Shown: positions 1,432-8,346 of the stretch, in pieces
How the letters are laid out: the number at the start of each line of letters is the position of its first letter
How positions within the stretch are numbered: the stretch's first letter is position 1
Assembly: GCA_003164305.1 (NCBI GenBank)
Contig: PLSZ01000514.1
Coordinates: forward strand, 6,543 to 14,888
Reading direction: 5' to 3'
Length of the DNA: 8,346 bases
Source of the DNA: Acetobacteraceae bacterium
GTDB lineage: Bacteria; Pseudomonadota; Alphaproteobacteria; Acetobacterales; Acetobacteraceae
Notes under the pieces: model-generated
What the model was told of the DNA's origin: nothing
The model's input: the letters and a program-made list of their open reading frames with translations, nothing else
Databases searched by the model: none
Translations under genes and position numbers: made by a program

Positions 1432-1620
1432 TTAACGATGAATCTCAGTCGTTGTTGTCGTCTCCGACTGGGCCGGCATCGCCATCGGGGGCGGAGTGGT
1501 GATGGTCCGCTCACTGGTCGTGGTGGTGCGGGTCACCGGATCGGGTCCGCAACCGGCCAGCATGGCGACGCCGGCGAGCAAGGCCATTCCAAGCGATAGC
1601 TTCAAAGTGGATTTGGGCAT
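1432..1620 (-). CDS. Small Thr-rich lipoprotein A (62 aa)
   Basis: A predicted exported lipoprotein of unknown function. The N-terminus has a lysine-bearing n-region and a hydrophobic core ending in the lipobox LAGC (residues 21-24), so the mature protein should start at Cys24. The mature part is only about 39 residues and almost all Thr, Pro, Ser and Met, with runs TTTT and TTTTT and a PPP turn. It begins CGPDPVTRT, very like the next gene upstream (CAAPVTRT), which argues for duplication. The ATG at 1620 is preceded by a good GGAG about 9 nt away. A longer in-frame start at 1806 would place Arg-rich, unrelated sequence before the signal peptide and is not credible. Third gene of a three-gene tandem; no family recognised. 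Confidence 0.75.
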   Translation of the reverse strand: MPKSTLKLSLGMALLAGVAMLAGCGPDPVTRTTTTSERTITTPPPMAMPAQSETTTTTEIHR

Positions 1621-1642: not shown

Positions 1643-1954
1643 TCAGTTCGTTCCAGACGTGGTCGTTTCGGTCGTCGATCTGATGACGGGCGGCGGCGTA
1701 ACGGCTGGCGCCGGACCGGTTTCGTCCGTCTCCTCGTCAACGACGTTGCCGTTACGGTCGCGGTTGACCGTCCGTGTGACCACGGTCTGCTGAGGCGTGA
1801 TGACAACGGGCGGAGGAAGCGCTCGCGGCTGGGTCGTCGTCACCTCGCTCGTTTCGGTCCGCGTCACCGGAGCCGCGCATCCCGCGAGGCAAACGCAACC
1901 GACCGCCCAGGCCATCCCGGCCAGCAGGCCAAAACGCGATCTGGTTTCAGTCAT
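1643..1954 (-). CDS. Small Thr-rich lipoprotein B (103 aa)
   Basis: A predicted exported lipoprotein with no recognised family. The signal peptide has an Arg-rich start and ends in lipobox LAGC (residues 23-26), giving Cys26 as lipidation site. The mature part is low-complexity: Thr/Pro/Val-rich at both ends, with a charged middle element RTVNRDRNGNVVDEETDE (about 61-78). That element resembles RTVDSDGNVSERT in gene C, and the C-terminal STTETTT resembles RTTETTT there. The ATG at 1954 has GGAG about 9 nt upstream. It sits 23 nt after gene C and 22 nt before gene A, as expected for an operon. A disordered cell-envelope polypeptide is the simplest reading; the role is unknown. Confidence 0.8.
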   Translation of the reverse strand: MTETRSRFGLLAGMAWAVGCVCLAGCAAPVTRTETSEVTTTQPRALPPPVVITPQQTVVTRTVNRDRNGNVVDEETDETGPAPAVTPPPVIRSTTETTTSGTN

Positions 1955-1977: not shown

Positions 1978-2262
1978 TCAGCGAGCGGTAGTGGTCTCCG
2001 TCGTGCGGCGCGTGGTGGTCGTTTCGCCGTACGGGCTGACGGTGGTCCCGGTGGTCATTGTCCGTTCGCTGACGTTACCGTCGCTATCGACCGTGCGCTG
2101 CTGAACGGTACGCTGCGTCACCGGCGCAGGAGCCACCGGAACGACGGGAGCCACCGGAACATAGGTATTTGTCGTCGTGGTGGTCTCCGAGCTGGTTTGC
2201 GCCATCGCGGCGCCCGCGATCAGCGTCAGGGCCGCTGGCGCGGCGAGCCAAATTCGGGTCAT
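1978..2262 (-). CDS. Small secreted Thr-rich protein C (94 aa)
   Basis: A predicted periplasmic or secreted protein of unknown function. The signal peptide has no lipobox Cys and should be cut after AMA (residues 19-21), leaving Gln22 as first mature residue. The mature chain is dominated by Thr runs (ETTTTTNT, GETTTT, TTETTT) around a Pro/Val segment (VPVAPVVPVAPAP, about 35-47) and a core RTVDSDGNVSERT. The ATG at 2262 is preferred over an in-frame ATG at 2301: it has GGAG about 10 nt upstream and starts directly at the signal peptide, while the longer form adds 13 polar residues and overlaps the predicted transcription start region. It is first in the Thr-rich tandem and lies about 50 nt downstream of an exact sigma EcfG-type promoter, so it is probably general-stress induced. 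Confidence 0.78.
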   Translation of the reverse strand: MTRIWLAAPAALTLIAGAAMAQTSSETTTTTNTYVPVAPVVPVAPAPVTQRTVQQRTVDSDGNVSERTMTTGTTVSPYGETTTTRRTTETTTAR

Positions 2263-2318
2263 GTCTCGTTCTCCAACGAAATGCCAATGAGTGGAGATCA
2301 CCCAGTGACCATTTATGA

Positions 2319-2343
2319 AACGGAGGACACCCCGATTGGTTCC
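2319..2343 (-). promoter_or_regulatory. Sigma EcfG-type promoter for the Thr-rich cluster
   Basis: Read on the minus strand, GGAAC (2343-2339), 16 nt, then CGTT (2322-2319): an exact match to the alphaproteobacterial general stress sigma factor consensus. The predicted start near 2311 gives a leader of about 50 nt before the ATG at 2262. The -35 lies 10 nt past the stop of the Mla auxiliary gene, so this promoter separates the two operons. No strong terminator is visible between them, so some read-through is possible. Confidence 0.75.
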
Positions 2344-2352
2344 GAATCCGGT

Positions 2353-2946
2353 TTACCTCGTGCGTGACAGCGTCAACGCGACCCGATCCGCCAGCTGATC
2401 GACCGCCGCGGCCATCGCGGCGACGACGTCCGCATCCTTCATGCTCCCGGACGAGATCGGCACCATCGTAACGATCGAGGCCCGTTCACTGGCCGCGATG
2501 CCGTGCCGGTCGATGCCAAGGACACTCCACCGCGCTGCCAATACACAGCGTCCGTCCGGCATGATGTCGAACGCATCGACGGTGATCAGCAACGCGCGCG
2601 CGGGCTGTCCGGACGGGACCGACCGCGCGATGACGATTCCAGGCAGCCGTTTGGTTAAATCGTCTTCCAGCGCCCGCGTCACGCCAACCGACAAACGTTC
2701 CCCCCAACGACCGGTCTTGCTGATTGTCAGCGCGTTCTGTCCGTCGCGCAGTTGAATGTCCAACGTATCAAGATAATCCGGCACCGTTACCGTCTTGAGC
2801 TCAACGATGGGGCGGCCCGTTTCCGACGCCATCCCGGAGACCGGAGGTGCCGGCGGACCCATTATGTAAATCCGCGGCGCCGGTCCCGCGCATCCCAGCA
2901 GCAGCAGCACGCCGGACAAAAGACCCCATCGGATTGTCGCCATCAT
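2353..2946 (-). CDS. Lipid ABC transporter auxiliary lipoprotein (PqiC/ABC_trans_aux family)
   Basis: The predicted outer-membrane-facing lipoprotein partner of an MCE transporter. Known members of the ABC-type transport auxiliary lipoprotein family (PqiC, formerly DUF330) work with MCE proteins in moving lipids between membranes. The 197-residue product has a signal peptide ending in lipobox LLGC (16-19). The family's diagnostic segment follows: PDYLDTLDIQLRDGQNALT (56-74), then a conserved Trp in GRWGERLSVGVTRALEDDL (79-97). The middle (about 119-145) carries the alternating strand pattern of the domain, and the C-terminus is an amphipathic helix. Its ATG overlaps the stop of the MlaD gene (ATGATGG), so translation is coupled. 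It is the last gene of the Mla operon. Confidence 0.88.
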   Translation of the reverse strand: MMATIRWGLLSGVLLLLGCAGPAPRIYIMGPPAPPVSGMASETGRPIVELKTVTVPDYLDTLDIQLRDGQNALTISKTGRWGERLSVGVTRALEDDLTKRLPGIVIARSVPSGQPARALLITVDAFDIMPDGRCVLAARWSVLGIDRHGIAASERASIVTMVPISSGSMKDADVVAAMAAAVDQLADRVALTLSRTR

Positions 2947-3923
2947 CGTGCGTCCCGCCCGAGCAAAATCGCGTTCGGCTTTTCTTCCACCGTGCGGCTG
3001 AAATTACGCAACGACGCGGCACTCGCCGCCAGATCGCGCGCCGCTGCCTCCAGGTCATCGCGCAGCGGCGAACGCGGCGCGGTCAGATCGCCAAGATTGC
3101 CCACTACCTTGTCGGCATGACTGACCGTTTTGTCGGCCGACGTGGCGACCGTCCCGATCTCCTTGCCCGCGGTCTTCACCTCACCCTCGGTGGTTTTCGA
3201 CAGATGATCGATCGAATCCAACGCTCGCGATGCATCCTGTTGCACCTGTTTCACCGCGGCGGTGGCGGTATCCAACGTGTCATGGGCCGCGTCGGAGGTC
3301 TGTCGGACACTGTCCACGAGGGGCCCGGCCTTACCGGTCACTTCGCCAATCAGACCGTTGATCCCAGCCAACGCGGTACGGGCCCTCTCCACGAGGTCCG
3401 GAAGTTTAAGGTCCTCGATTTCGTTCCTCACCTGTTGCAAATCCGAAGGGACCGTGGGGATTTCCGGAATGCCGCCGCTTTCGCCGCTGACCTTGGCCTC
3501 GGTGCCTGGATAAAAGTCGAGGTTCACGCTGACCTGGCCGGTGACAAGGCTCGTCGTGGCCAGTTGCGCGCGCAGGCCGGCCTTGATGGCCAGATCCAGA
3601 TCGTTGGCGCCGGCGGTCAGCGGATCGCTGGTCCAGGAGACCTGGGTTGGCTCGATTTCCATGTAAACCGGAATCACCGGCACCAGTTCCGGCAATTTAA
3701 GATAGACTTTCATGCTGCTGACGGTGCCGATTTGCACGCCCCGCAGCGTGACCGGCGCGCCGACCGCGAGGCCCGCGACGGAATTCTGAAAATACGCGAC
3801 GACGCGCAGCTTCGGGCTGAACAGGTTCCTGCCGCCGAACACCAGGATGGCGACGACGACCAACGCCAACGCGCCGAGCACGAAAGCGCCAATGGCGGTC
3901 GGTGTCTTAGCGGTGATCGCCAT
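2943..3923 (-). CDS. mlaD: MCE-family lipid-binding protein (MlaD-like)
   Basis: The periplasmic substrate-binding part of a lipid ABC transporter, anchored in the inner membrane; MlaD proteins form hexameric rings that shuttle phospholipid. The 326-residue product has one N-terminal membrane helix (about 11-30), then an MCE domain with RVVAYFQNSVAGL (40-52) and VGAPVTLRGVQIGTV (54-68), continuing to about 140 (SLVTGQVSVNLDFYPG). The long rest is predicted helical, rich in Ala, Asp and Thr, with coiled-coil character (about 165-310). It ends in EEKPNAILLGRD, a family-like tail. The ATG at 3923 has an AGGGAAGGG-type binding site and starts just before the membrane helix; an extension to 4061 would be Arg-rich overlap with the ATPase gene. 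It overlaps the ATPase end by 17 nt. Confidence 0.92.
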   Translation of the reverse strand: MAITAKTPTAIGAFVLGALALVVVAILVFGGRNLFSPKLRVVAYFQNSVAGLAVGAPVTLRGVQIGTVSSMKVYLKLPELVPVIPVYMEIEPTQVSWTSDPLTAGANDLDLAIKAGLRAQLATTSLVTGQVSVNLDFYPGTEAKVSGESGGIPEIPTVPSDLQQVRNEIEDLKLPDLVERARTALAGINGLIGEVTGKAGPLVDSVRQTSDAAHDTLDTATAAVKQVQQDASRALDSIDHLSKTTEGEVKTAGKEIGTVATSADKTVSHADKVVGNLGDLTAPRSPLRDDLEAAARDLAASAASLRNFSRTVEEKPNAILLGRDAR

Positions 3924-4689
3924 CAATGTCCCTTCCCTCGTCAGGCCGTTCGCGATGCATGAACGCGTGGACGGCCGGAAGGTCGCTGGTATCGCGCAGT
4001 TGCTTCGGCGAACCGCGCGCCAACGCCGTCTTCGTCTCCGCGTCCAGAAAAATTCCGTCATCGCAAATACCCAGCAAACTGGGCAATTCGTGGCTGACCA
4101 TGATCACTGTGACTCCGAAACCATTCCGCAACTCCAGGATCAGATCGTCCAGCCGTTTGGACGCGACCGGATCCAGGCCGGCGGACGGTTCATCCAAAAA
4201 CAGCACGTCGGGATCGAGCGATAAAGCCCGCGCTATGCCGACCCGGCGGCGCATTCCACCGCTGAGTTCACCGGGCATGGTCGATCCCGCCTTGTCCAGG
4301 CCGACCAACGACAATTTCAATCGCGCCAGCTGCTCGATCGAATTGTTGTCCAGATGGGTAAACATCCGCAACGGCAACGCCACGTTCTCCTCCGCGGTCA
4401 TCGAACTCCACAGCGCGCCGGATTGAAACACGACCCCGAAACGACGCCCGATCTCGGCCCGGCGCGATTCGGTGGCGGCCCAGTAGTCTTCGTCGCCAAT
4501 GTAGATTGAGCCGGTGTAGGGCGGCAATAAACCGATCATGGTGCGCATCAGCGTGCTTTTGCCGCAGCCGCTGCCGCCCATGATGGCGAAGATCGACTTC
4601 TCGCCGACTTCGAAGGAAATGTCGTGTTGCACGACACCGCCATCGTAGCCGAAGCTTATGCCATCGACGCGGATTTTCGGTGTGGCCAT
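3907..4689 (-). CDS. mlaF: Lipid ABC transporter ATP-binding protein (MlaF-like)
   Basis: The cytoplasmic ATPase that powers the MCE lipid transporter. All motifs are intact in 260 residues: Walker A GGSGCGKST (38-46), Q-loop Gln89, signature LSGGM (142-146), Walker B VLFLDEP (162-168), D-loop SAGLD (169-173) and switch His200. The LSGGM signature followed by RRR, and the segment GVVFQSGALWSSMTAEENV (85-103), are characteristic of the MlaF subfamily. The C-terminal tail from about 224 (ARGSPKQLRDTSDLPAVHAFM) is the short region typical of these ATPases. The ATG lies 3 nt after the permease stop with little ribosome binding sequence, so it is probably translationally coupled. The gene end overlaps mlaD by 17 nt. 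Confidence 0.95.
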   Translation of the reverse strand: MATPKIRVDGISFGYDGGVVQHDISFEVGEKSIFAIMGGSGCGKSTLMRTMIGLLPPYTGSIYIGDEDYWAATESRRAEIGRRFGVVFQSGALWSSMTAEENVALPLRMFTHLDNNSIEQLARLKLSLVGLDKAGSTMPGELSGGMRRRVGIARALSLDPDVLFLDEPSAGLDPVASKRLDDLILELRNGFGVTVIMVSHELPSLLGICDDGIFLDAETKTALARGSPKQLRDTSDLPAVHAFMHRERPDEGRDIDGDHR

Positions 4690-4692
4690 CGC

Positions 4693-5871
4693 TCAGAAGC
4701 TCAACGCGTTGGCGCAGACGGCGAATACCGCGTCCAGCGCGATGATGCCGACGATGCCGATCACCACGGCGGTTGTCGCGGCCTTGCCGACATCCGCCGC
4801 GGTGCGTCCCGCGCTCAATCCGGACCGGCAGCCGACGATCGCGATCATGGCGCCAAACGCGACACTCTTGAGCAGGCCGAACACGATCTGGCCACCGCCC
4901 AATGAGACCTGCGTCTCATCGATGAAGCTGGTGGCCGACATGTTCAGCATCGCGACAGCCACGGCGAGGCCACCAAGCACACCGACGGCGAAACCATAAA
5001 TGTAGAGCAACGGCATCATGCACGTCAGCGCGATGATCCGCGGCAGGATCAAATAATCGTGCACCGGGATGCCGATCGTGCGCAGCGCGTCGATTTCTTC
5101 ATTGCCCACCATGGTGGCGATTTCGGCGGCGTAAGCACCGCCGGTCCGCCCGGACATCACGATCGCGGTCATCAGCGCGGTCATTTCGCGCGCCATCGCC
5201 ACCGCCACCAGATCCGCGACGAATATCCCGGCACCGAATCGTTTTAATTGCACCGCGCCGACGAAGGCGACAATGGCACCGGTCAGCGCGTTGACGACGG
5301 TCACGATCGGCAACGCCGCGACGCCGGCATCGCGCATGCAGGTCAGCAGATCGACCGAGCGCATCCGGACCCGGCCGCGCACGGATGCGCCCGCGCTCAG
5401 GACCGTGTCGCCAATCAGCGAAAATACTTCCAGCGTTTCGTTCCAAATACCGATTGTAACCTGACCGATACGAGCAACCAGCTTCGGTCCAGCCGGCGCG
5501 CCCGCGGCGGAGGGCGCGGCTTCCGTGGTCAGCGCGAGCAATCGCGTCGCCGCCTCAGGCAGACCGTCTTCGTGGAACGGAACATGATGCCCTCGCGCGG
5601 CCCGGCGCAGCGATGCGACAAAAATCAGCAGCGCGCTGTCCCAACGGCCCAGACCACTGGCATCGAACGAAATACCCCGGGTGCCGGCCGCTTCGATAAT
5701 TCGCGAGATCGCCGCTTCGTCGGTACGAATCCCATTCACCGCGATCCAGTCGCCGGTCAGTGTGATCAACACGCCATCCCGATCGGCACGCGCCTCCCAT
5801 CCCTCACCCCGAGGGCCCTGGGCAGACCCGTCCCGCCGGTCCGCCGCCGGATGGGCCGGCGTGTCATTCAT
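4693..5871 (-). CDS. mlaE: Lipid ABC transporter permease with N-terminal STAS-like domain (MlaE-like)
   Basis: The inner-membrane permease of the MCE transporter, fused to a regulatory domain. Counting from the ATG at 5871 (392 aa), residues about 30-115 resemble a STAS/MlaB-like domain: GVLITLTGDWIA, then DASGLGRWDSALLIFV at the usual STAS loop. Residues about 130-392 are the MlaE domain with about five membrane segments and the family hallmark AREMTALMTAIVMSGRTGG, then GNEEIDALRTIGIPVHDYL. In E. coli, MlaB is separate; the fusion would explain why no mlaB gene is present here. The start is uncertain: ATG 5871, ATG 5892 and TTG 5919 are all in frame and none has a good binding site. I favour 5871 because its ATG overlaps the stop of a well-initiated upstream short ORF. 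First gene of the operon. Confidence 0.92.
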   Translation of the reverse strand: MNDTPAHPAADRRDGSAQGPRGEGWEARADRDGVLITLTGDWIAVNGIRTDEAAISRIIEAAGTRGISFDASGLGRWDSALLIFVASLRRAARGHHVPFHEDGLPEAATRLLALTTEAAPSAAGAPAGPKLVARIGQVTIGIWNETLEVFSLIGDTVLSAGASVRGRVRMRSVDLLTCMRDAGVAALPIVTVVNALTGAIVAFVGAVQLKRFGAGIFVADLVAVAMAREMTALMTAIVMSGRTGGAYAAEIATMVGNEEIDALRTIGIPVHDYLILPRIIALTCMMPLLYIYGFAVGVLGGLAVAVAMLNMSATSFIDETQVSLGGGQIVFGLLKSVAFGAMIAIVGCRSGLSAGRTAADVGKAATTAVVIGIVGIIALDAVFAVCANALSF

Positions 5872-5938
5872 GGCGAAACGACCGCGTCGCATCGCGGCGC
5901 GGCCGTTCGTCGTGTTCAACGCCGTTGCCTGAACGCAT
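5864..5938 (-). CDS. Possible 24-aa leader ORF overlapping the mlaE start
   Basis: An ATG at 5938 follows a perfect AGGAGG (5950-5945) with 6-nt spacing, the best ribosome binding site in this part of the window. It opens a 25-codon frame ending in TGA at 5866-5864. The product is polar and Arg-rich (begins MRSGNGVEHDE) with no recognisable domain. Its stop overlaps the likely mlaE ATG (5871) by 8 nt, the arrangement used for translational coupling. Alternatively the site once started mlaE itself and a one-base indel separated it from the frame. Sequence alone cannot decide; the peptide is not claimed to be functional. Confidence 0.4.
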   Translation of the reverse strand: MRSGNGVEHDERPRRDATRSFRHE

Positions 5939-6027
5939 CGATGGCCTCCTCACACGATCAGAGCCGGCGAATGTCATCCGTTCCGTCGGCACTGGCGCTG
6001 GCGCCAACGAAAGGACAGCATTAGGCG

Positions 6028-6507
6028 TCAGTCCGCCATCGCGTCAATAATGTTGAGGGCTCGTCCCCGATCTCCTTCACCCAGGGCATGCAACGCGTCG
6101 CGAACGCGGTTCACGCGCGGGCCGCCGTCCGGCATGGTCGCCGCATCTTGTGTCGTTTCCCTTGTCAACAACCGCGTTTCCGCCATCTCCAGCGATTGCT
6201 GAGCCTGGCCCGTACGACCGGCGTTCAACGCGGCGCGCGCGGCGCGAAGATAATCGCGCGCATCCGCGTCTTCGCCAACATCAGGCGTGGGCAATCGTGG
6301 CGCGATCGTCGAGCGGGTGTCGTCCGGCAGGATATGACTCGCCCGGGTCGAGCGCGGATCGTTCGGGCTGGGATAAATGCCCGCCGACGAAAATGACGCG
6401 TCGGCCTCCGGGCCCGTATTAGCCAGCATTGGCGACCGCGCCTGGGCCAACCCAGCGATCGACGTCACACCGAGCAGAGCAAAAGTCGCGAGTTTCAGCA
6501 TACGCAT
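6028..6507 (-). CDS. Secreted protein of unknown function (159 aa)
   Basis: A predicted periplasmic protein; I recognise no named family. A signal peptide of about 23 residues ends in AQA (21-23). Residues about 25-80 are Pro/Ser/Asp-rich and look disordered. Residues about 84-112 form a helical stretch, DARDYLRAARAALNAGRTG then AQQSLEMAETRLL, and residues about 131-158 a second one, RVNRVRDALHALGEGDRGRAL. Both carry the spacing of small TPR-like helical hairpins. Similar hypothetical proteins occur in Acetobacteraceae as far as I recall (unverified). The start is firm: AAGGAGGT lies at 6522-6515, 7 nt before the ATG at 6507. It is upstream of the Mla operon with a gap of 89 nt or more, and probably separate from it. 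No EcfG-type promoter precedes it. Confidence 0.75.
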   Translation of the reverse strand: MRMLKLATFALLGVTSIAGLAQARSPMLANTGPEADASFSSAGIYPSPNDPRSTRASHILPDDTRSTIAPRLPTPDVGEDADARDYLRAARAALNAGRTGQAQQSLEMAETRLLTRETTQDAATMPDGGPRVNRVRDALHALGEGDRGRALNIIDAMAD

Positions 6508-6533
6508 GAGGATGACCTCCTTACTTCGCCGGA

Positions 6534-6671
6534 TCAGCCATACGCCAGACCCGGAAGGACCGGCGAACCTTCCGGGGCTGGTCCATCCACCTTCAGCGGA
6601 ACGGGGAAGCGCGGGAAGTTGTCAGGCATCAGCCCTGCTTCCTGAAGCAACGTCCCTCTCAAAAACGTCAT
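6534..6671 (-). CDS. Possible 45-aa ORF, unknown
   Basis: An ATG-started frame of 46 codons between the decayed DUF3309 gene and the secreted-protein gene. The product begins MTFLRGTLLQEAG, has a Pro-rich middle and ends LPGLAYG; it has no signal peptide or membrane segment. Its ribosome binding site is poor, third-position GC is lower than in neighbouring genes, and a long inverted repeat (6545-6581) lies inside it. It could be a real small protein, the remnant of one, or chance. Not recognised. Confidence 0.2.
   Translation of the reverse strand: MTFLRGTLLQEAGLMPDNFPRFPVPLKVDGPAPEGSPVLPGLAYG
6545..6581. repeat. 14-bp inverted repeat (one mismatch) with 9-nt loop
   Basis: CCCGGAAGG (6550-6558) pairs perfectly with CCTTCCGGG (6568-6576). 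After one A/G mismatch, four more pairs follow (CCAG with CTGG), for a 14-bp stem around the loop ACCGGCGAA. No T-run follows on either strand, so a classical intrinsic terminator is not supported. It sits 38 nt upstream of the ATG at 6507 and could be a 5' leader structure, a T-less terminator or a protein-binding site. Confidence 0.5.
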
Positions 6672-6675
6672 GGCG

Positions 6676-6803
6676 TCAAAACGTCCCGGTCAGCATCAGA
6701 ACCACGACGATGATAAGTACCAGCCCCAATACGCGCTGTATGGCCACGTCGGTCACGCCGCGATCAGCAACAGCACGACGATGATCAGAAGCAACGCGCG
6801 AAT
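6676..6803 (-). pseudogene. Decayed DUF3309-type small membrane protein gene
   Basis: DUF3309 proteins are about 50-residue peptides: two hydrophobic stretches around a PTWPYS-type turn. Here one frame reads IRALLLIIVVLLLIAA, a TGA stop (6755-6753), then PTWPYSAYWG. A second frame then reads LGLVLIIVVVLMLTGTF to a TGA at 6678-6676. Three lesions are visible. The expected start is ATT (6803-6801) rather than ATG, although a GTGAGGG binding-site-like stretch sits 6 nt upstream. There is an in-frame stop before the Pro-Thr-Trp turn. The frame is lost just after the turn, where several family residues also appear to be missing. Loss by mutation is the natural reading; assembly error would need three separate mistakes. 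DUF3309 function is unknown, though such genes often sit near stress genes. Confidence 0.65.
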
Positions 6804-6924
6804 GACAAACCCTCACCAACAGGCCGGCTGGACGACTCTCATCTCGTTATCGGATGCGTCCGCTCCTGAGGGCGCCGCGCATCGCGAAGTTCTTTCGCCA
6901 CACACGAAAGGAAACCGGCGGGAT
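6804..6924 (-). other. Untranslated stretch between EcfG-type promoter and decayed gene
   Basis: About 120 nt with no convincing gene. The predicted transcript start near 6916 is followed by a small hairpin, CTTTCG (6892-6897) with CGAAAG (6905-6910) around a 7-nt loop. Only very short frames (20-30 codons, no good binding site) are present. It is probably the long leader of the decayed DUF3309 gene. The remainder of the 6508-7011 gap is described under the inverted repeats, the 45-aa ORF, the decayed gene and the promoter. Confidence 0.4.
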
Positions 6925-6949
6925 AACGGGCCGGTCGCCGCAAAGTTCC
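6925..6949 (-). promoter_or_regulatory. Sigma EcfG-type promoter upstream of the decayed DUF3309 gene
   Basis: On the minus strand, GGAAC (6949-6945), 16 nt, then CGTT (6928-6925): an exact consensus match. It lies 63 nt after the DUF883 gene end and about 122 nt before the apparent DUF3309 start. If active, it would now transcribe a broken gene or an RNA, and could read on into the secreted-protein gene at 6507. Confidence 0.65.
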
Positions 6950-6973
6950 CCTGCCCGTCCGCGCGCCCTGGCC

Positions 6974-7000
6974 GGCGCCGCGCCCATCAGACGCGGCGCC
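6974..7000 (-). terminator. GC-rich hairpin after the DUF883 gene, possible T-less terminator
   Basis: GGCGCCGCG (6974-6982) and CGCGGCGCC (6992-7000) form a perfect 9-bp GC-only stem with a 9-nt loop. It starts 12 nt past the DUF883 stop on the minus strand. No T-run follows, so termination is inferred from position and stability only. Confidence 0.45.
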
Positions 7001-7011
7001 CGGGCGGAACG

Positions 7012-7338
7012 TCAGCGACGCGCCAGGAACACGCCCGCGATCAAGCCAACGGAAGCCGCCACCAGAAGAGACGTCATCGGCTGCGCCTCCACCTGACGGG
7101 AAATCCGCGCTCCGGTCTGCGACCCGATCTGATACGCTTCCTCGCTCAGATCCGAAATCGCCGCCGAGGCCCCGCGGCACGCCTCACGCAACGCGTCCGA
7201 GGTGGCGCGGGCGCTTTCGCGCAGGCCGCGGTAGGACAGCGCCTCTCCATTCCCGTTCGACTCGCCCGACACGTCGTTTTCGTGCCCGGCACCGGAGCCG
7301 TTATGCATCGTCGTATCGTCAGCTTTGGACTGGCTCAT
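7012..7338 (-). CDS. DUF883/ElaB-YqjD-like membrane-anchored protein (108 aa)
   Basis: A small tail-anchored inner-membrane protein. E. coli relatives (ElaB, YqjD) are stationary-phase proteins reported to associate with ribosomes at the membrane. The N-terminus (1-33) is polar, Gly/Asn/Ser-rich and probably disordered. Residues about 36-82 form an amphipathic helix (YRGLRESARATSDALREA). Then comes the family C-terminus, VEAQPMTSLLVAASVGLIAG (83-102), ending in the basic ARR anchor. The start at 7338 is firm: AAGGAGG at 7350-7344, 5 nt before the ATG. It lies 30 nt after the possible 35-aa ORF and downstream of an exact EcfG-type promoter at 7518-7494, in keeping with a general-stress gene. 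A GC-rich hairpin follows its stop. Confidence 0.85.
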   Translation of the reverse strand: MSQSKADDTTMHNGSGAGHENDVSGESNGNGEALSYRGLRESARATSDALREACRGASAAISDLSEEAYQIGSQTGARISRQVEAQPMTSLLVAASVGLIAGVFLARR

Positions 7339-7368
7339 CGCCGCCTCCTTGAGGGTTGTATGAAGATT

Positions 7369-7476
7369 TCAGATCGCGTGAATTAAGTACAGCGCGACCA
7401 CGACCGGAACCGGACCGTAAGCGATCCACCATCGCGCGCCGCGCGTTCGATCCCCCTTTCCTGCTCGGCACCCCAT
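7369..7476 (-). CDS. Possible 35-aa single-pass membrane peptide
   Basis: A short frame from ATG at 7476 to TGA at 7371-7369. The product has a basic N-terminal half (MGCRAGKGDRTRGAR) followed by a hydrophobic segment, WWIAYGPVPVVVALYLIHAI, which looks like a membrane helix interrupted by Pro. The frame is open further upstream into the PNPOx gene, but that part is antisense-like shadow. It lies in the gap between two good genes and directly downstream of an exact EcfG-type promoter, with about 10 nt of leader. Against it: a poor ribosome binding site and a length too short to judge by codon use. No family recognised. Confidence 0.35.
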   Translation of the reverse strand: MGCRAGKGDRTRGARWWIAYGPVPVVVALYLIHAI

Positions 7477-7493
7477 CCCCGGGACGTCATATG

Positions 7494-7518
7494 AACGCGC
7501 GGCGTCGATGGCGGTTCC
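7494..7518 (-). promoter_or_regulatory. Sigma EcfG-type promoter for the DUF883 gene
   Basis: On the minus strand, GGAAC (7518-7514), 16 nt, then CGTT (7497-7494): exact consensus. It begins 6 nt past the stop of the PNPOx gene. The predicted start near 7486 serves the possible 35-aa ORF at once and the DUF883 gene after a leader of about 150 nt. Confidence 0.72.
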
Positions 7519-7523
7519 CGACG

Positions 7524-8012
7524 CTACGGCAAGGAGGTGCGGCCTTTGGTACCCACCATCGGACGTTCCCCGAACAATTTGGCTTCGAGAAACTTGATGG
7601 CGAGCACGATCGGATGCGACGGCGCGGTCCAGAACTCTCCGATGTCCGGCTCGAATCGCAGCAGACAGACACGAGGGTCGTCCGGGCCGTCCTGGAAGTA
7701 GGCCTCGGCGTGGTCGTCCCACAGATCCGTGATGGTGTCCGTTTCCGTTACCTGCGAGATTCGACCCGACAACGATACATAAACATTGTCCTTCACGTCG
7801 GTAAACGTCAGACAAGCACCGGAATTTCTCCGGGCGTCCTCGTGGGTCTGACTTTCCCGGTCGGCGAAAAACCAGATCGCGTTTTGCTCGGGACGAGAAA
7901 TCCCGCGCATCGGCCGTGCCCGCACGCCTTCATCGCCATGCGTCACCATCATGCAAACGCCGATTGACTGGACATACGCCCAGATCCGATTCCGTTCAGG
8001 TTGTTTACTCAT
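7524..8012 (-). CDS. PNPOx-fold general stress protein (pyridoxamine 5'-phosphate oxidase-like)
   Basis: A small cytoplasmic split-barrel protein of the general stress protein 26 type; relatives bind flavin, but the substrate is unknown and true pyridoxamine phosphate oxidase activity is not implied. The 162-residue product shows the expected order: an early strand around VCMMVTHGDEG (19-29), RARPM (31-35), IWFFAD (46-51), then ACLTFTD (66-72) and YVSLSGR (78-84). After these come DLWDDHAEAYFQDGPDDPRV (96-115) and the final LLRFEPDIGEFW (117-128). The Gly-Pro-x-Asp-Pro motif before the last strand is typical. The ATG at 8012 is the only credible start; its GGAG is rather far (about 13 nt). 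An exact EcfG-type promoter lies about 107 nt upstream, so induction by general stress is likely. Confidence 0.88.
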   Translation of the reverse strand: MSKQPERNRIWAYVQSIGVCMMVTHGDEGVRARPMRGISRPEQNAIWFFADRESQTHEDARRNSGACLTFTDVKDNVYVSLSGRISQVTETDTITDLWDDHAEAYFQDGPDDPRVCLLRFEPDIGEFWTAPSHPIVLAIKFLEAKLFGERPMVGTKGRTSLP

Positions 8013-8036
8013 GATGAATTGCCATCTCCGAAATGA

Positions 8037-8067
8037 CTGACAGCCCGGCGGATCCGGCCACTGTCAG
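8037..8067 (-). repeat. Hairpin in the PNPOx gene leader
   Basis: CTGACAG (8037-8043) and CTGTCAG (8061-8067) are perfect inverted repeats. Inside them CCGG (8045-8048) pairs with CCGG (8054-8057) around a 5-nt loop. In the predicted minus-strand leader the structure ends about 24 nt before the PNPOx ATG, just ahead of its GGAG. It could affect ribosome access or bind a regulator; no T-run supports termination. Confidence 0.45.
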
Positions 8068-8118
8068 CCCATGCCGCCTGAGAGGCGACGGCGTTCCCTG
8101 CGTTACCAACCGGCGGTC

Positions 8119-8144
8119 AACGCCGCGGGTTGGGCGGAGGTTCC
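8119..8144 (-). promoter_or_regulatory. Sigma EcfG-type promoter for the PNPOx-fold gene
   Basis: On the minus strand, GGAAC (8144-8140), 17 nt, then CGTT (8122-8119): exact consensus with the other allowed spacing. It starts 12 nt after the histidine kinase stop. The predicted start near 8111 gives a leader of about 100 nt containing a hairpin. A GC-rich inverted repeat (about 8107-8130) overlaps the -10 region. Confidence 0.72.
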
Positions 8145-8155
8145 CAATCGGAGCC

Positions 8156-8346
8156 TTAACTGTCGGAAACCAGGCTTTTCGGAAATTCCAGGGTCCAGCG
8201 CAGACCCGTCGCGGCGTAATCGATACGGACCTCGCCATGCAGCGCGCGCGCGACGGTGCGTTCGATGACCACACGGCCGAACCCGCGCCGCCCAGGACGC
8301 TCGACGGGGGGACCGCCGGATTCTTCCCAGGAGAGGGTGCACATCG
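8156..8346 (-). CDS. Sensor histidine kinase, HWE/HisKA_2 type, C-terminal fragment
   Basis: Only the last 62 codons are in the window; the gene enters from the right edge. The visible part is the end of the ATPase (HATPase_c) domain. SWEESGGPPVERP then GRRGFGRVVIERTVARALHG is the G2-box region and following helix as found in HWE/HisKA_2 kinases, including the Trp-x-Glu-x-Gly-Gly-Pro pattern. It closes with strands VRIDYAATGLRWTLEFP. The Met at 8344 is an internal residue, not a start. The sensor domains and phosphorylated His are outside the window, so the signal is unknown. HWE and HisKA_2 kinases frequently feed the PhyR-NepR-EcfG general stress pathway, which fits the EcfG-type promoters next door, but that link is inference. 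Confidence 0.85.
   Translation of the reverse strand, partial: MCTLSWEESGGPPVERPGRRGFGRVVIERTVARALHGEVRIDYAATGLRWTLEFPKSLVSDS

Follow-up and report, generated by a model that had tools for sequence, protein, structure and literature searches.

What do four exact matches to the promoter motif of sigma-EcfG, the sigma factor of the alphaproteobacterial general stress response (GSR), signify when they stand together in one short piece of DNA? The question is raised by an 8,346-nt stretch of an Acetobacteraceae genome (GenBank assembly GCA_003164305.1, contig PLSZ01000514.1, positions 6,543 to 14,888 of the forward strand), here called the window, in which an original prediction made from the sequence alone had seen a local general-stress regulon. 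We conclude, with a probability of roughly 0.85, that the window flanks a GSR core, on the 3' side of its kinase gene, in a soil Acetobacteraceae, such a core being a locus where phyR stands beside a gene for an HWE kinase with nepR and ecfG adjoining. We place it just 3' of such a core because relatives of its kinase, PNPOx and DUF883 genes adjoin phyR, nepR and ecfG in related genomes, and because sites of this kind are enriched there. Sigma-EcfG is also classified as ECF15.

A pattern scan of the whole window for GGAAC-N{15,18}-CGTT gave four matches, all on the minus strand, which is the coding strand:

8119..8144, minus strand: sigma-EcfG-type promoter, spacer of 17 nt (N17), exact match, 11 nt past the stop codon of the kinase gene and ahead of the PNPOx gene.
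7494..7518, minus strand: sigma-EcfG-type promoter, N16, exact match, 5 nt past the PNPOx stop codon.
6925..6949, minus strand: sigma-EcfG-type site, N16, exact match, 62 nt past the preceding stop codon, target uncertain.
2319..2343, minus strand: sigma-EcfG-type site, N16, exact match, 9 nt past an mla-type operon and ahead of three threonine-rich (Thr-rich) genes.

The coordinates, strand and intergenic placing of these sites (called below by their higher coordinate) are those that had been predicted, and the claim that there is no further exact match, and none inside a gene, held as well, since the N15-18 scan yields these four alone. Judged by the coordinates of the open reading frames (ORFs), all four lie between genes, and each is upstream of a gene on the same strand; site 6949 is followed first by a broken gene, and lies 417 nt from the start of the one after it, for a 159-aa protein. 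GGAAC-N16-CGTT is the published sigma-EcfG motif (PMC7083833, PMC3892343). In one Sphingopyxis promoter, changing CGTT to CATT or TGTT reduced transcription in vitro; promoters that carry CATT and TGTT naturally were transcribed (PMC7083833).

The number of matches exceeds what chance would give. In 200 dinucleotide shuffles of the window (N15-18) the mean was 0.44 matches and the maximum 2, compared to the 4 observed, and the density of the exact pattern in 72 related genomes predicts 0.04-0.27 matches per window (median 0.09). When spacers of 8-26 nt were allowed, the GGAAC/CGTT pair was found three times at 16 nt, once at 17 nt and once at 21 nt, and the reversed pattern occurred once. With one mismatch and spacers of 16-17 nt there are two extra matches (3400-3425, plus strand; 3666-3690, minus strand), both of them within the MCE-type gene. 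Promoter and terminator scans and an Rfam search of the window returned nothing else that bears on the sites.

Along the minus strand the window contains an edge ORF, a site, the PNPOx gene, a site, a small ORF, a DUF883-like gene, a site, a broken DUF3309 gene and the 159-aa gene, followed by the mla-type operon (STAS-MlaE, ABC, MCE, auxiliary lipoprotein), a site, the three Thr-rich genes and an MFS transporter gene, the labels ABC, MCE and MFS coming from sequence and position with no family search behind them. The genes that connect the window to the GSR core are those at the start of this order:

8156..8346, minus strand: HWE/HisKA2-type sensor histidine kinase, truncated by the window edge to its C-terminal end (phmmer, identities to kinases).
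7524..8012, minus strand: general stress protein 26-type protein with a PNPOx fold (Pfam PF16242, 5.5e-35).
7369..7476, minus strand: gene for a probable membrane microprotein, 35 codons from an in-frame ATG (local search, alignment).
7012..7338, minus strand: DUF883/ElaB-like protein with a C-terminal glycine zipper (PF19029, 18.7 bits against a cut-off of 27; ElaB model 18.1 bits, also below cut-off).

By homology the edge ORF encodes the end of an HWE/HisKA2-type sensor kinase. Its final 62 residues align with the C-terminus of the blue-light-activated histidine kinase 5epv (phmmer against PDB, E = 5.2e-6), which we take to be the HWE-type blue-light (LOV) histidine kinase of Brucella, and the fragment is 63%, 64% and 60% identical to the kinases encoded next to phyR in three loci of related genomes (L132, L133 and L218). 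The L132 kinase gene sits immediately upstream of a PNPOx gene, and the full-length L218 kinase has CHASE3, PAS_4 and HWE_HK domains, the HWE phosphoacceptor region being seen in that homolog. The edge fragment alone has no match in Pfam, and none was found in plasmid sequences. In the general stress response, PhyR receives its phosphoryl group from kinases of the HWE or HisKA2 families (PMC7083833).

The gene order of the relatives points the same way. In L132, ecfG and nepR adjoin a run that begins with phyR and continues with the kinase, PNPOx, DUF2383, CsbD, a PRC-barrel-like ORF, a microprotein and DUF883, and the window order of kinase, PNPOx, microprotein and DUF883 is the L132 order minus DUF2383, CsbD and the PRC-barrel-like ORF. 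The order is phyR, kinase, exact site, CsbD-like and DUF883 in L218, and phyR, CsbD-like and DUF883 in L219. Pfam identifies PhyR (PF22029, PF22233) and NepR (PF18557) in L132, with EcfG beside them as a sigma-70 region 2/4 protein, and also confirms CsbD, DUF2383 and DUF883 in that locus; the DUF883 match passes the cut-off in L218 and falls short of it in L219, and the L132 PRC-barrel-like ORF is named by its likeness to one that is Pfam-confirmed in L133. Of the six PNPOx loci with at least 46% identity to the window, five include PhyR on the stretch retrieved (L131, L132, L133, L167 and L168; genome G533 contributes both L131 and L133), and L134 does not. A PNPOx gene (44%) is also found beside PhyR in L224, from a genome of the Elstera family, but this locus was retrieved with NepR as the query and is therefore not an independent case. 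Unlike this clade, which is tied to the GSR core locus, the 29 PNPOx loci with less than 35% identity showed no core gene with the queries used.

Two side observations concern the core loci themselves. Genome G533 has two complete phyR-nepR-ecfG loci (L133 and L131), each with its own PNPOx gene (57% and 47% identical to that of the window, respectively), and in L225 and L226 (genomes G508 and G571) two tandem ecfG-like genes lie beside divergent phyR and nepR genes.

Exact sites are concentrated at these loci. The 15 core loci (222,703 bp) contain 30 exact sites where 2.8 are expected, an excess of about tenfold, and the ten core loci that remain when L220, L223, L224, L225 and L226 are excluded (nine genomes) contain 27, compared to 1.95 predicted by the remainder of those genomes and 4 occurrences of the reversed pattern; the loci and genomes are interrelated, so Poisson P values for these counts overstate the independence of the cases. 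Sites lie within 500 nt upstream of 6 of the 14 phyR matches and 4 of the 12 nepR matches. Motif enrichment across whole genomes was also considered as evidence and rejected, the local test being used in its place. In 72 related genomes the exact pattern occurs at about 5-32 per Mb, and it exceeds the reversed control in just 19 of them, for which reason an isolated exact match proves little and our case rests on local clustering and gene neighborhood, not on the motif alone. What marks GSR loci in these genomes is a cluster of exact sites, not a single match. NepR itself was matched in 38 of the 72 genomes when E = 0.001 was the limit and in 28 when the cut-off was applied, and among 14 controls in Caulobacter alone; the 72 genomes were hand-picked, some may be incomplete, and the 35-position profile may miss divergent NepR proteins.

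Sigma-EcfG control of the PNPOx gene is supported by sites in relatives. Among all 35 loci fetched via PNPOx (33 genomes, 520,734 bp), which contain 27 exact sites in total, seven have an exact site no more than 400 nt before the gene, every one of them at 28-61 nt, where about 0.3 would be expected by chance. In L132 the PNPOx upstream region has the variant CATT in place of CGTT. Many of the homologs carry the JGI name 'general stress protein 26', and a protein of that name is a sigma-EcfG target in Sphingomonas melonis, where the -35 element is GCAAC (PMC6599016). Plasmids of Rhizobium give weak support: of six PNPOx loci, chosen among the 60 listed of 156 Rhizobiales records, three (L227, L229 and L232) show GGAAC-N16-GGTT, with its end 40 nt upstream of the gene; a fourth carries a one-mismatch match at -191, and a fifth an exact match about 1 kb upstream. 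In a draw of 385 genomes across the class, PNPOx homologs were found in 8 genomes, at 26-33% identity.

Site 7518 probably serves the membrane microprotein together with DUF883. It had been predicted to precede a 35-aa ORF and a DUF883 gene; the DUF883 part stood, and the ORF (7383-7490) is probably in the wrong frame, because its ATG begins 3 nt past the -10 element and because it is another frame, 7369-7476, that has homologs upstream of DUF883. The latter matches a 25-aa hydrophobic ORF upstream of the L132 DUF883 gene (46% identity over 24 aa, E = 4.5e-4, local search), and similar small hydrophobic ORFs are present in L131, L133 and L101; the matches of the 7383-7490 frame are weak (E = 0.022 and 0.031) and lie outside GSR loci. 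Where L132 has its ATG, the window has ACG, with an in-frame ATG further upstream at 7476. The microprotein has no match in Pfam, NCBIfam or plasmid sequences, and a pattern scan of 233 sequences (the window included, and L116 being a second copy of the L132 stretch) found no other copies, the pattern being narrow enough that distant members may escape it. In the loci read, the family is confined to GSR-core stretches or the neighborhood of DUF883. The window DUF883 protein is 43%, 45% and 42% identical to those of the GSR loci L132, L218 and L219.

Site conservation gives some support to sigma-EcfG control of this microprotein-DUF883 unit in relatives. Upstream of the microprotein the site is exact (CGTT) in the window and in L133, and reads TGTT in L131; the L101 microprotein has no site upstream, and its genome has no NepR match. 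One of five loci with DUF883 homologs has a site upstream of that gene. A one-mismatch site upstream of DUF883 in L132 (3935-3960) was discarded, as it overlaps the start of the microprotein.

By analogy with other alphaproteobacteria, stress would lead the kinase to phosphorylate PhyR, which would then draw NepR off sigma-EcfG, and RNA polymerase carrying sigma-EcfG would initiate transcription at the GGAAC-N16/17-CGTT sites, with PNPOx and the microprotein-DUF883 unit as its presumed direct targets. The phyR, nepR and ecfG genes would lie beyond the window edge, as we infer from the relatives.

The weakest step in this reading is the use of the two sites that precede the DUF3309 remnant and the Thr-rich trio. 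The genes concerned are:

6676..6819, minus strand: broken DUF3309 gene with an in-frame stop codon and a frame change (PF11752, 15.4 bits, below cut-off).
6028..6507, minus strand: putatively exported 159-aa protein of unknown function (homologs in relatives).
1978..2301, minus strand: first Thr-rich exported protein (homologs of 35-45% identity in the 159-aa-gene loci of relatives).
1643..1954, minus strand: second Thr-rich protein, with a lipobox-like signal read from the sequence (ORF; weak homologs).
1432..1620, minus strand: third Thr-rich protein, with a lipobox-like signal likewise read from the sequence (homologs of 43-58% identity in L100, L101, L112 and L113).

The description of the DUF3309 gene as decayed was correct, as shown by the interrupted, sub-threshold Pfam match. 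Intact DUF3309 genes are found in loci of 8 genomes, mostly beside homologs of the 159-aa gene, whose product we read as exported from its N-terminus and which has homologs in 165 of 347 genomes drawn from one family, that of G161; the class-wide draw contained none. The families of G138 and G350 yielded no homologs, and the family of G038 yielded MlaE relatives only. Both of the listed homologs of the 159-aa protein with an NCBI organism name come from 'Acetobacteraceae bacterium'. Homologs of the Thr-rich trio are found near those of the 159-aa gene, often with DUF3309, in L098, L100, L101, L103, L112 and L113 (Acetobacteraceae-like genomes). By gene content, the Thr-rich trio, the 159-aa gene and often DUF3309 form a conserved cluster of unknown function in several relatives.

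Several results weigh against our interpretation. At the core itself, four loci (L219, L224, L225 and L226) have no exact site at all, and the five core-linked PNPOx relatives (L131, L132, L133, L167 and L168) have none directly upstream of PNPOx; the weak genome-wide excess over the reversed pattern, described above, belongs here too. At the cluster, none of 25 loci with the 159-aa gene has an exact site within 500 nt upstream. These loci come from 22 genomes; of the 21 scored for NepR (all except G531), 15 are without a match over the cut-off and six have one, and the eight loci from the six NepR-positive genomes (G533, G495, G496, G520, G544 and G508) are siteless like the others. Likewise, none of eight homologs of the first Thr-rich gene (seven genomes) has an exact site in the 400 nt upstream, three of them having one-mismatch matches there, and for the intact DUF3309 genes of the 8 genomes no site precedes the matched motif within 330 nt. 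The last two results are weak evidence, because none of the genomes with these DUF3309 and Thr-rich relatives has a NepR match. The expectation that sites would be kept upstream of orthologs is thus borne out for PNPOx and fails for the 159-aa gene, and the proposed local regulon stands for the PNPOx site, gains some ground for the microprotein-DUF883 unit, and is unproven for the DUF3309 remnant and the Thr-rich trio. Because no equivalent sites were found there in relatives, the argument for 6949 and 2343 is limited to their exact match and their standing in the cluster of four.

It is accordingly a real possibility, short of an even chance, that only 8144 and 7518 are working sigma-EcfG promoters and that the matches at 6949 and 2343 arose by chance or are in decay. 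The missing equivalents at DUF3309, the 159-aa gene and the trio favor this, as do the broken state of the gene that follows 6949 and the background density of exact matches in the related genomes; two chance extras in 8.3 kb would nevertheless be unusual at 0.04-0.27 expected, both are intergenic and on the coding strand, and the lack of NepR matches in the genomes of the DUF3309 and Thr-rich relatives means that their missing sites weigh little. A further suggestion goes beyond our preferred reading of the window as a GSR-core flank: the DUF3309/159-aa/Thr-rich cluster, an envelope/stress cluster with no exact site in the relatives examined, may in this Acetobacteraceae lineage have moved beside a GSR core and gained sigma-EcfG promoters, in a core that also drives an undescribed family of 25-aa membrane microproteins. 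We consider this doubtful as a whole.

Two other explanations concern what the sites do. Elements of the GGAAC type at -35 are common to several groups of extracytoplasmic function (ECF) sigma factors, and any ecfG of this genome would lie outside the sequence examined, so the sites could belong to another ECF factor with a similar -35 element. We think this very improbable, since the -10 CGTT and the 16-nt spacer fit published sigma-EcfG motifs (PMC7083833, PMC3892343) and the sites are concentrated at phyR-nepR-ecfG loci, where they precede phyR and nepR themselves. At least one site might instead drive a small non-coding RNA, as for ReC64 of Rhizobium etli, which lies downstream of tcrY, the gene for the kinase partnered with phyR, and has a sigma-EcfG1 promoter (PMC3892343); the position of 8144 just past the kinase stop codon, with a gap of 106 nt to PNPOx, would suit such an arrangement. 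This too is unlikely, if less so, given that no Rfam family scored over threshold in the window, that no terminator-like site is listed between the promoters and PNPOx or DUF883, and that the sites of seven PNPOx homologs stand so close to the gene. The GSR-core flank, with sigma-EcfG promoters ahead of PNPOx and the microprotein-DUF883 unit, remains the reading we prefer.

The window also contains, between the 159-aa gene and site 2343:

2353-5919, minus strand: mla-type operon (STAS-MlaE, ABC, MCE, ABC_trans_aux lipoprotein; Pfam for part).

The closest MlaE seen (56%) is from genome G387, in the family of Elstera (the family of G161 was covered for MlaE only within the class draw), and an MlaE search of genome contigs found 14 loci at 29-45% identity.

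The motif, the core and the kinds of target are already published for other alphaproteobacteria, and sigma-EcfG biology is itself known. Two things are fresh here: the microprotein, and the possibility that sigma-EcfG has recruited a cluster which lacks exact sites elsewhere. The openly licensed papers listed as matching the general stress response do not name Acetobacteraceae, and no such microprotein is named in the abstract openings of the two papers listed for sigma-EcfG with small proteins. The window offers a detailed case of the general stress response from a little-studied branch of soil Acetobacteraceae, with concrete candidate targets in PNPOx, the membrane microprotein, DUF883 and the Thr-rich trio.

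Compared to known systems, DUF883, DUF3309, the Thr-rich trio and the microprotein are not among the GSR targets named in the portions of the literature consulted. The ecfG1 locus of Rhizobium etli (phyR/tcrX, tcrY and ReC64) has in common with the window a sigma-EcfG site downstream of a kinase gene, and differs in that a non-coding RNA follows there, whereas a protein gene is next in the window and no Rfam family was found. In Sphingopyxis, the sigma-EcfG targets include gsp, ku, csbD and the gene for an HWE kinase adjoining phyR (PMC7083833). The sigma-EcfG/PhyR-NepR system as described in Sphingopyxis granuli and Sphingomonas melonis differs from what we see here in that the core genes are outside the window, and shares with it the motif and its spacing, an HWE kinase by phyR, and its kinds of target (general stress protein 26, CsbD and Ku). 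The window PNPOx protein belongs to the same fold family, PF16242, as general stress protein 26, and its control by the general stress response is probable here.

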